Source: Bacteroidaceae bacterium | GTDB taxonomy: Bacteria > Bacteroidota > Bacteroidia > Bacteroidales > Bacteroidaceae | Assembly: GCA_017540585.1 (NCBI GenBank) | Contig: JAFYAT010000117.1 | Coordinates: forward strand, 1-42,831 | Direction of reading: 5' to 3' | DNA length: 42,831 nt | Shown here: piece by piece, positions 30,840-33,852 of the stretch | Numbering within the stretch: the stretch's first letter is position 1 | Layout: each line of letters opens with the position of its first letter | Program-made: the position numbers and the translations under genes | Notes under the pieces: generated by a model | What the model was told of the DNA's origin: nothing | Seen by the model: only the letters and a program-made list of their open reading frames with translations | Databases searched by the model: none

Positions 30840-31058
30840 CCTCCGTTTTGTGTCAGTCGATTCTCCGTTCTGCCTCCGTTGTAAGTCCGTTGATACTCCG
30901 ATGTGAGTACGGAGAATGTCCACCGCATCTCCATCGCATCTCCACCGAATGTCCATCGTTTCGGTGGACATTCGATGGAGATATGATGGACATCCGATGA
31001 TGATGGTACGGAGTTACTACGGAGTATCATCGGAGGCAGAGCGGAGAATCAACGGAGG
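30840..31058. repeat. 219-base imperfect palindrome with 11-base periodic core
   Basis: The outer arms CCTCCGTT/AACGGAGG (30840-30847, 31051-31058) enclose 30859-30878, whose reverse complement matches 31031-31050 in 19 of 20 bases. Near the centre 30940-30955 pairs with 30965-30980 (15 of 16). The core arms are built of 11-base units such as TCTCCATCGCA, TCTCCACCGAA and TGTCCATCGTT, mirrored as GATGGAGATAT and GATGGACATCC. It is richer in GC than its surroundings. Open frames on both strands here are by-products of the symmetry. Confidence 0.75.
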
Positions 31059-31964: not shown

Positions 31965-32180
31965 ATGAAAAAAGAATTTGTAAAGCCAGAGATTAAGAGT
32001 CTCAGACTTCGTGAAAACATTTTGGCTGGTTCTGGTGGAAGTGCGGCAGGTGGTGGTACTGGTTGTTTGAAACATCAGGATTCAGGCTGTACACAGCATT
32101 GTTATTACAATTGTCCAACCGAATGTTATAGTCTTACTGGTGGTAAATGTACTGGTCATTGTCAAACAATAGGTTTCTGA
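31965..32180 (+). CDS. Cys-rich RiPP precursor peptide
   Basis: A 71-residue peptide with a leader MKKEFVKPEIKSLRLRENIL, a Gly/Ala/Ser-rich hinge (AGSGGSAAGGGTG) and a core with seven Cys at 34, 42, 46, 50, 54, 62 and 66. All spacings are multiples of four, so C42-C54 is a CxxxCxxxCxxxC run. His, Tyr and Gln fill many of the other places. The leader type KPEIKSLRLRENILAGSG is common for radical SAM-modified peptides of Bacteroidota. The radical SAM gene follows after 38 bases. The Cys periodicity suggests thioether bonds (sactipeptide, ranthipeptide or CXXX-repeat type). The GG motifs could be a cleavage site, but no peptidase or exporter gene is adjacent. Confidence 0.82.
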   Translation: MKKEFVKPEIKSLRLRENILAGSGGSAAGGGTGCLKHQDSGCTQHCYYNCPTECYSLTGGKCTGHCQTIGF

Positions 32181-32218
32181 TTTGTTTTGAACTTAATTAT
32201 TTTAATATTTAATAGAAA

Positions 32219-33586
32219 ATGAAAATTATTTCCTTACCACTTAGGGAAGTAATCGATATAGCGGGAAACCAACCTTCTTTTGGTTGCGTTTCCCGTAAGT
32301 CTTCCTTTTATTTTGACGTAAAAGTTGATAAAGGTTATATTCTATATAATTCATTAACGAAAGAATGTTTGTATGTTGATGATTCGGAATATAATAACGA
32401 TGAGTTGAAAAACACTTTTACCGAAAAATGGTTTTATGTTCCATTGGATTTTGATGAAACAAAGTTCGTGGATGAGATTCGTGATGTCATTAATTATACC
32501 TTGTGTCAAACACAAGGCTTTGTGTCGTACACAATTTTGACTACAACAGATTGTAATGCAAGGTGTTTCTATTGCTTTGAGGCAAACTCAAAAAAAATAA
32601 CGATGTCAGATGAAACCATTGGTAAAGTTCTTGATTATATAGAGCGAACACGTTGCAAAGATTCTAAATTGACTTTACAATGGTTTGGAGGAGAACCATT
32701 ATATAATAAAAAGGCTATCAATTCAATTTGCCGTTGTCTTAAAGAAAAAGGAGTTGAGTATGCAAGCTCGATGATAAGTAATGGATATCTTTTCGATAAA
32801 GAGACAATTTGTGAAGCTAAAGATTTGTGGAATCTTAATAATGTCCAAATAACTTTGGATGGTACGGAAAAGACATATAATAAGGTTAAGTCTTATATCT
32901 ATAAGGATGTAAATGCTTATGAACGAGTTCTCCAAAATATCGATAATCTCTTGTCTGCTGAAATAAGCGTTTCTATAAGGCTTAATATTGATGCTTATAA
33001 TATCCAAGATATGAGGTGTCTTGTTAATGAATTGGCTTTGCGATATAAAGGCAAGAAAGGACTGTCTGTTTATACTCATACGTTATTTGAAGAAGTCGGT
33101 AAATGTGGTGGTTTTGTGAGAACACAAGAGCGCAGAAAGGAAATTTGTGAGTTGCAAAAGGCTTTGGAAGATGAAATTGTTTCTTTGGGGCTTGCTCATA
33201 GTACGTCTCGTATGTTGAGTAAGAAATTTATGGATCATTTTTGTATGGCAGATGCTCACGGTTCTATTGTTATTTTGCCAGATGGTCATTTGACAAAGTG
33301 TGAGAGTAGTCTTGATGATAATTTTGTAGGTCATATAGACAATGATTGCTTGAATGAAAAAATGCTTGCTAAATATCGAAGGCATTGTAAAAAATTAGAA
33401 GAGTGTAAAACTTGTGTTTTGTATCCAGATTGCATTAAACTTGAGGTTTGTCATGAAGCAGGCAAATGTTATGAGGAATTTAGAAATAAAAGAATTTCTG
33501 ATTTGAAAGAGGCTGTCCTTAATGAGTATCATGCATTCTTGGAACGAGAGAAAGAAAATGCAAATAATAAGGATAAAGTATCATGA
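32219..33586 (+). CDS. radical SAM/SPASM peptide maturase
   Basis: A 455-residue enzyme that should modify the preceding precursor by radical chemistry. The 4Fe-4S SAM cluster motif is C112-N-A-R-C116-F-Y-C119, followed by GGEP at 157-160 and ISNGY near 186. The C-terminal SPASM region supplies ligands for auxiliary clusters: C342, C361, then C390, C396, C399, C405, C411 and C417. The N-terminal 100 residues have no cluster motif and may contact the leader. The gene is AT-rich compared with its neighbours. Its TGA overlaps the ATG of the PqqD-like gene (ATGA), which implies translational coupling. Confidence 0.9.
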   Translation: MKIISLPLREVIDIAGNQPSFGCVSRKSSFYFDVKVDKGYILYNSLTKECLYVDDSEYNNDELKNTFTEKWFYVPLDFDETKFVDEIRDVINYTLCQTQGFVSYTILTTTDCNARCFYCFEANSKKITMSDETIGKVLDYIERTRCKDSKLTLQWFGGEPLYNKKAINSICRCLKEKGVEYASSMISNGYLFDKETICEAKDLWNLNNVQITLDGTEKTYNKVKSYIYKDVNAYERVLQNIDNLLSAEISVSIRLNIDAYNIQDMRCLVNELALRYKGKKGLSVYTHTLFEEVGKCGGFVRTQERRKEICELQKALEDEIVSLGLAHSTSRMLSKKFMDHFCMADAHGSIVILPDGHLTKCESSLDDNFVGHIDNDCLNEKMLAKYRRHCKKLEECKTCVLYPDCIKLEVCHEAGKCYEEFRNKRISDLKEAVLNEYHAFLEREKENANNKDKVS

Positions 33587-33852
33587 GAACAATAGAAGGA
33601 TATGAGTTGAGGGCATTAGGTTCGCAGAATCTTTTGGTCGGAGTGGGTGCGAATGTTGCCCATTCGGGAGTGCTTCGTAAGATGAACGAAAGTGCTGCTT
33701 ATTTGTGGAAATCTGTGGTAGGTAAGGATTTTACAGAGGACATGTTAGTTGATTTGCTCTTGGCAGAATATGACGTAAGTCGTGAAGATGCCACAGAAGC
33801 TGTTAAAGATTTAATCAAAGACTGGAAAGCTGAAAATATCATAGAAGAATAA
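33583..33852 (+). CDS. PqqD-like RiPP recognition protein
   Basis: An 89-residue protein with the winged-helix PqqD fold: LRKMNESAAYLWKSVVGKDFTEDMLVDLLLAEYDVSREDATEAVKDLIKDWKAENII. The NESAAYLW and VxxFLxxLxxxxII-like ending are family traits. Such proteins hold the leader of a RiPP precursor and present it to the radical SAM enzyme. Last gene of the cassette; it overlaps the maturase by four bases. Confidence 0.85.
   Translation: MRTIEGYELRALGSQNLLVGVGANVAHSGVLRKMNESAAYLWKSVVGKDFTEDMLVDLLLAEYDVSREDATEAVKDLIKDWKAENIIEE

Follow-up and report, generated by a model that had tools for sequence, protein, structure and literature searches.

The window analysed here, 42,831 nucleotides long, is an entire contig of a Bacteroidaceae genome (3.62 Mb, 86% complete) and carries a compact trio of forward-strand genes encoding a small cysteine-rich peptide, a radical SAM/SPASM enzyme and a PqqD-family protein, with the following features:

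31965..32180, forward strand: precursor peptide gene, 71 aa (open reading frame; match to the leader HMM, of which the window peptide is one of 22 seeds)
31977..31988, forward strand: FVKP (residues 5-8), an instance of the leader motif [YF]xxP and a putative PqqD-binding site; motif role after passages of PMC13381572
32064..32171, forward strand: core C-x-x-Z units C34-H37, C42-H45, C46-N49, C50-E53, C54-L57, C62-H65 and C66-I69 (sequence and Cys+3 statistics)
32219..33586, forward strand: radical SAM/SPASM maturase, 455 aa (Pfam Radical_SAM, sub-cut-off NCBIfam matches, pLDDT 93.1, fold match to 5WHY/5WGG)
32291..32503, forward strand: N-terminal strand-and-helix region of the maturase, residues 25-95, possibly RRE-like to judge from its secondary structure
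32552..32575, forward strand: CxxxCxxC radical SAM cluster motif, C112/C116/C119, invariant in 76 sequences
33242..33469, forward strand: SPASM region with seven invariant Cys (342, 361, 396, 399, 405, 411, 417) in an alignment of 76
33583..33852, forward strand: PqqD-family protein (RRE), Pfam PqqD 49.7 bits against a cut-off of 23.4; a 13-sequence profile matches PqqD-family structures

The precursor and maturase genes are 38 bp apart, and the maturase and PqqD genes show the ATGA overlap that an earlier note on this DNA had described. The same note's account of the peptide (71 residues, Cys at 34, 42, 46, 50, 54, 62 and 66, hence steps of 8, 4, 4, 4, 8 and 4) was reconfirmed from the open reading frame, and the CxxxCxxC motif that it had ascribed to the enzyme lies at residues 112, 116 and 119. 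The Cys-rich end of the maturase stands as well, but not its count of eight: nine Cys occur from residue 342 onward (342, 361, 377, 390, 396, 399, 405, 411, 417), and the seven that are invariant among the 76 aligned sequences would be consistent with ligands of auxiliary clusters. The assignment of the trio to a radical SAM RiPP cassette is supported by the domain matches, by leader-HMM peptides near related maturases and by the predicted fold. A maturase, a PqqD-type RRE and a precursor with conserved leader and variable core are combined in one unit, whose predicted product is very probably a cysteine-rich peptide modified by a radical enzyme.

The maturase matches Pfam Radical_SAM; its best NCBIfam match is TIGR04463, at 141.4 of the 525 bits required, and the scores for Clo7bot (118.7 of 600) and PapB (74.9 of 340) are likewise so far below the curated cut-offs that membership in any of the three families was rejected. 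All 76 homologues match the same three models at E 1e-10. An AlphaFold model of the enzyme (mean pLDDT 93.1) has as its top three fold matches chains of 5WHY/5WGG (E 5e-17 to 2e-16, 17-18% identity, TM 0.57-0.62, rmsd 8-10), aligned over the full-length maturase (445-458 columns) and followed by TigE, SuiB, anSME and SkfB. 5WGG/5WHY, which we take to be CteB, is the top PDB sequence match as well, and its structure title refers to thioether bond formation. The strand-and-helix region that precedes the radical SAM motif may be RRE-like; profile comparison of the maturase with the PqqD set gave no match.

A PqqD profile of 13 sequences matches the TbiB1 and TfuB1 structures and five other PqqD-family chains. 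Discrete RREs of lasso and LPP systems bind [Y/W]xxP, as set out in parts of PMC13381572 and PMC12710340, and by analogy the window PqqD protein would bind the FxxP motif of its own precursor. The lasso markers themselves (macrolactam synthetase, B2 peptidase) were not recognised among the neighbouring translations. The window PqqD protein has 81% identity to its counterpart at locus L081, where the maturases share 45%, and 77% identity to the one in genome G020 (L006/L013; maturase 66%); this partner either evolves more slowly than the maturase or gets exchanged.

The best 80 of 409 relatives from a scan of named genomes were kept, giving 79 loci (L013-L091) that were analysed together with the window. 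A leader HMM, whose 22 seeds were picked by eye at no more than 1.5 kb from maturases (one seed bears an extra M), recovered 61 putative precursors at E 0.2 in 57 of the 80 loci and none in the other 23; weaker YTKP peptides were seen in L049 and L062 (E 13 and 1). The collected set retains possible non-precursors, namely opposite-strand single-Cys peptides of L016, L029, L044, L068 and L069 and the two-Cys peptide of L074. Of the 80 loci, 55 have a leader-HMM peptide no farther than 1.5 kb from the maturase, and 25 have one on the same strand at most 300 bp upstream. Matches to the HMM number 58 in 222 kb near maturases, two in 193 kb at 1.5-3 kb and one in 234 kb at distances above 3 kb, a contrast that is partly circular because all 22 seeds are near peptides. 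The motif [YF]xxP occurs within the first 20 residues of 49 of the 61 precursors (4.5 in shuffles) and [YF]xxA in 11 of the remaining 12; as the peptides were selected by the leader HMM, this count describes a shared family trait and is no independent test. Below this common leader the cores are hypervariable. The window precursor has no NCBIfam or Pfam match at E 1, and among 47 precursors compared with both collections the best match (E 0.0083) concerned one member only. The possibility raised earlier that the maturase always pairs with another precursor class is not borne out, close relatives sharing the leader class of the window.

Other small open reading frames accompany some relatives. 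A subclade comprising L015 and L039 has upstream GG-type peptides (ELSEDDL..A.GG) in place of [YF]xxP ones; distant Clostridial relatives (L154-L157) are flanked by several short Cys-rich frames, many starting like MKYIVKP...EGYC; and antisense frames of repeated LACL units lie beside the precursors of two Faecalibacterium loci (L114, L117), suggesting a short tandem DNA repeat.

Orphan [YF]xxP small proteins, often with LAGS-like N-termini, are found in the window's own genome (L003, L093-L096, L099) and in L118, L119 and L122-L128 (Prevotella tf2-5, AGR2160). Their presence invites the view that the short frame of the trio encodes one of the generic small proteins of Bacteroidota that share this N-terminus and lies beside the maturase by chance, all the more as no maturase was found near the orphan peptides in 19 loci (L003, L093-L099, L118-L128) of about 2-3 kb each. 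We consider this very improbable: leader-HMM matches near and far from maturases stand at 58 against one, the leader persists beside the maturase in the window's nearest relatives L013 and L014, and the orphans that were read carry between zero and two Cys. All 15 orphans whose N-termini were typed have [YF]xxP, most of them having been found with a profile of that leader.

The spacing of the Cys in the window peptide is beyond chance, all seven being congruent modulo 4 in a fraction of only 5.5e-5 of 200,000 core shuffles, or 5.3e-4 if any period from 3 to 7 is admitted. To this extent the strict four-residue grid proposed in the earlier note holds for the peptide itself. It does not extend to the family: in the two nearest relatives found, L013 and L014 (maturase identity 66% and 59%), the leader is kept and the grid is lost, with core Cys steps of 5, 5, 10 and 4 in the former and 4, 5 and 6 in the latter (20, 4, 5 and 6 over the whole L014 peptide, whose first Cys sits in the leader). 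Because these nearest homologues lack it, a conserved i,i+4 arrangement placing Cys on one helix face or making repeated rings was rejected as a family rule; such homologues are what the earlier note had named as refuting evidence, and they tell against the grid but not against the cassette. A more distant member, L063, has steps of 4, 4, 4, 4, 4, 2, 5, 6 and 4, and its precursor contains three consecutive CxxD units. Across the family cores, a step of 4 is the commonest (35 of 131 steps against 12.4 in shuffles, with none of 5000 shuffles as high; 31 against 11.7 without the window), yet steps of 5 and 6 are likewise in excess (18 against 10.6 and 16 against 9.1), and two Cys seldom stand side by side (1 against 19.4). 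The commonness of step 4 is better explained by C-x-x-acceptor units than by a defining grid.

Such units emerge when Cys positions are held fixed and the remaining core residues are shuffled. In the 61 cores, Asp occurs three residues after Cys 53 times against 21.0 expected (z 8.2), an offset that was chosen after a scan of 12 offsets and 9 residue classes, and elsewhere between -6 and +6 its z never exceeds 0.7. Since the counts at Cys-1 (25 against 22.2) and Cys+4 (17 against 16.2) are near expectation, the signal is not simply that of Asp preceding the next Cys. The excess at +3 persists in a non-redundant set (49 against 19.1), in Bacteroidota including the window (37 against 15.6) and in other phyla (16 against 5.2), with none of 2000 shuffles as high in each case, the phylum labels having been assigned by hand from record titles. 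Asp and Tyr are strongly and His and Asn weakly enriched at this position; Ser and Thr are strongly and Gly and Ala mildly depleted, and Phe and Trp show no enrichment. Without the window's clade, D/E/N/Y/H at +3 still amount to 94 against 44.6 (z 9.2) and Tyr alone to 15 against 4.3. Core starts were placed behind the leader motif by a fixed rule. In a later set of 13 cores, delimited by another rule with two peptides set by hand and excluding two additional L208 peptides, Asp at +3 deviated in the same direction without reaching significance (6 against 3.0, 122 of 2000 shuffles as high); neither D/E (9 against 5.8, 186 of 2000) nor D/E/N (10 against 7.6, 386 of 2000) was significant there.

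For the window peptide, five of seven Cys are followed at +3 by D/E/N/Y/H (p 0.003), a result carried by three His; all three core His occupy this position (p 0.003 in a post hoc test), and D/E/N alone account for two (p 0.07). His at +3 is not enriched outside the window's clade (3 against 2.5), and the clade-mates L013 and L014 by themselves show no +3 excess (4 against 3.2), the +3 residues of window and clade-mates being mixed. Across the collected family the C-x-x-Z rule thus has good support; for the window peptide it is only suggestive, since the signal there rests on three His and His is not enriched at +3 outside the clade.

The reading that we favour, and to which we give roughly even chances, is a ranthipeptide-like RiPP in which a PqqD-delivered precursor is modified by a SPASM enzyme that links Cys(i) with the residue at i+3, the grid following from CxxZ units in tandem. 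The PqqD protein would grip the N-terminal FxxP of the precursor much as lasso and LPP RREs grip [Y/W]xxP. The radical SAM/SPASM enzyme would then abstract a hydrogen from the residue at +3 relative to a core Cys, whose sulfur would close a thioether ring once per C-x-x-Z unit, with a loss of 2 Da each; this step is suggested by the Cys+3 statistics together with known ranthipeptide chemistry. Tandem CxxZ units would space the Cys by four and so produce the grid, and the leader would finally be cut off by a peptidase, none having been recognised beside the trio. Candidate acceptors in the window peptide are H37, H45, N49, E53 and H65, while L57 and I69 would be poor ones. Such a mechanism is plausible because related chemistry is known: PapB links Cys to Asp or Glu in CX3D and accepts Cys-Xn-Asp with n from 0 to 6 in vitro, as reported in parts of PMC9413430, and a Cys-Asn link in NxxcA and a Cys-Thr link in CteA are covered in passages of the review PMC8326336.

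Two other readings address the same Cys+3 profile. The Cys could instead be joined to alpha-carbons, as in sactipeptides, or to acceptors that vary, in which case the +3 residue would serve as a recognition determinant only. SkfB (6EFN), which is among both the sequence and the fold matches of the maturase, makes a sactipeptide-type product according to passages of PMC8326336; a +3 preference can stem from recognition as well as from chemistry, and the mixed +3 residues of the window and its clade-mates fit this view. We nevertheless regard it as unlikely, if the more serious of the two: 5WGG/5WHY ranks first by both sequence and fold, and at +3 Asp and Tyr are strongly and Asn and His weakly enriched, with Ser, Thr, Gly and Ala depleted. 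The acceptors known from sactipeptides are hydrophobic and small, and residues of that kind would not predict such a profile.

The second holds that the product is a metal-binding peptide, in which Cys and D/H/Y/E/N at i+3 chelate and the change made by the enzyme is minor or unrelated. Asp, Glu, His, Asn, Tyr and Cys are usual metal ligands, and the residues at +3 correspond to this set rather than being simply aromatic, as the lack of Phe and Trp enrichment shows; the window core combines seven Cys with three His, every one of them within CxxH. Against this, no metal-transport gene was recognised among the open reading frames at 27-39 kb, of which six proteins including the trio were scanned with Pfam, and the recurrent partner of the peptide is a SPASM enzyme, which would be compatible with chelation too. 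On balance this seems distinctly improbable.

The favoured thioether-forming cassette has features of several described systems. With PapB/PapA (freyrasin) the family shares several Cys each near an acidic residue and a SPASM maturase, the PapB model being matched by 76 of 76 homologues; however, the natural PapB motif is CX3D (i+4), whereas the present signal lies at i+3 and includes Tyr. A PapB-type ranthipeptide (CX3D/E) was rejected on the near-expectation count of Asp at +4 across the 61 cores, and no window Cys has D/E at that position. CteB/CteA, a SCIFF ranthipeptide system, provides the best fold match across the whole enzyme and the best PDB sequence match; unlike the window enzyme, 54 of the 76 homologues match the SCIFF maturase model at E 1e-10. 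The precursor model of SCIFF is presumably TIGR03973. Cys-every-fifth (CefB) and CXXX-repeat (TIGR04115) systems, whose names imply regularly spaced Cys, have models matched at E 1e-10 by 75 and 72 of the 76 homologues, respectively. The likeness to CXXX-repeat peptides suggested in the earlier note was not upheld, TIGR04115 being absent from the window enzyme's 14 matches at E 1e-10 and from the best 25 of its 29 families at E 1. Cys-every-fifth was rejected too: CefB is not among the window enzyme's matches, the window steps are 8, 4, 4, 4, 8 and 4, and the corresponding precursor model is absent among the eight families matched at E 1 by 47 precursors.

LPP systems resemble the family in their YxxP-type leader, discrete RRE and variable core, and in the HPr-kinase-like and S24-like genes that lie beside some relatives; an HprK-like kinase and a leader peptidase resembling signal peptidases are encoded in LPP clusters, as described in parts of PMC13381572, whose main text contains none of the terms 'radical SAM', 'thioether' and 'Bacteroid'. 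Unlike LPP clusters, the window has an FxxP leader and an RRE without a kinase or S24-like homologue by tblastn, and LPP membership was rejected since the kinase and SpI-like peptidase partners were not found there. Among the 80 loci an HPr-kinase-like gene occurs in 21, an S24-like gene in 13 and both in 11; a single tblastn query for each of the two gave no match in the window, L013 or L014. Pfam support is weak for the kinases tested, whose E values of 0.005 and 0.002 fall short of the cut-off; of three S24-like proteins, two pass the Peptidase_S24 cut-off, and that of L085 has no Pfam match at E 0.01. In agreement with the earlier note, no exporter or peptidase was recognised beside the window trio, but the kinase-like and S24-like genes recur among the family's loci. 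An ABC cluster present in 12 of the 80 loci is no evidence of an exporter, as its representative has an ABC_tran_Xtn domain, and a C39 peptidase search of the window's own genome gave one match over 25 positions (23.3 bits against a cut-off of 22).

In counts that include the own or centre genome, the maturase occurs at E 1e-30 in 4 of the 45 congeneric genomes and in 6 of 399 sampled across the family. Alignment A1 at 1e-40 matches 13 of 393 genomes from the order and, for the family to which a Faecalibacterium genome belongs, 16 of 396; at 1e-70, 7 of 375 genomes match in the order of that Faecalibacterium genome. With alignment A3 at 1e-70, the genus of Prevotella tf2-5 has 10 matching genomes among 190. 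The kept relatives belong to Bacteroidales, Clostridia and, in one case, Atopobiaceae, and many have titles that name rumen, cecum, rectum or feces. The window clusters with L013 and L014 (support 100/100) in a tree of 76 maturases, and phyla are clustered but imperfectly separated, with three to four label changes.

An HD-domain neighbour of the cassette is present in 44 of the 45 congeneric genomes at E 1e-30. The other neighbour, which we take to be UvrD-like, was found in none of 30 loci, among them the window's own, that were fetched with flanks of 1.5 kb; the gene lies beyond such flanks, so this is uninformative about cassette gain. GC content per 500 bp across 31.0-34.0 kb (0.32-0.37) does not stand out clearly against that of the flanks (0.34-0.49), a promoter and terminator scan gave nothing informative, and Rfam at gathering scores returned three tRNAs only. 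Positions 30853-31057 of the window, 5' of the cassette, form an imperfect inverted repeat of about 200 bp with arms of 96 nt that are 71% complementary. Elsewhere, in L253 (genome G027, positions 1501-1641), a PqqD remnant with 72% identity over 47 residues and two internal TAG codons lies among homologues of the flanking genes of the G020 cassette; at E 1 neither a maturase nor a precursor was matched in the locus, and the remnant suggests cassette loss.

A separate triad of kinase-like, S24-like and PqqD genes lies beside a gene that we take to be ung-like, all four being present in 25 of 30 loci (L243-L272), of which L246-L272 are from congeneric genomes; PqqD homologues occur in 40 of the 45 congeneric genomes at E 1e-10. 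Thirteen maturases used as tblastn queries matched 3 of the 30 triad loci (1.5 kb flanks), all of them known cassettes. The triad resembles an LPP-type core and might process the orphan [YF]xxP peptides.

No description of the present family was recognised among the papers listed by searches of one open-licence library, an absence that is no proof of novelty. PMC10352776, in the parts available, is a survey of Bacteroidales RiPPs, and a rumen culture survey counts, in the relevant part of PMC13289728, two ranthipeptide clusters in Bacteroidota by the rule TIGR03973. Because it used that rule and counted only these two clusters, the latter survey may have overlooked the present group.

In summary, the trio could, at a rather low probability, belong to a branch of radical SAM RiPPs in rumen and gut Bacteroidales and Clostridia that the papers found do not describe, in which lasso/LPP-type [YF]xxP delivery would be joined to SPASM-made i,i+3 links from Cys to Asp, Tyr, Asn or Glu and, in the window, His. 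We know of no radical SAM thioethers between Cys and His or Tyr, and such links, if the reading is true, would be new chemistry. C-x-x-Z offers a testable sequence rule for maturases that fall below every NCBIfam cut-off shown for the window enzyme, and it ties together two separately described RiPP logics, [YF]xxP/PqqD delivery and SPASM cross-linking; should the enzyme accept His or Tyr, the range of enzymatic peptide cross-linking would be widened.
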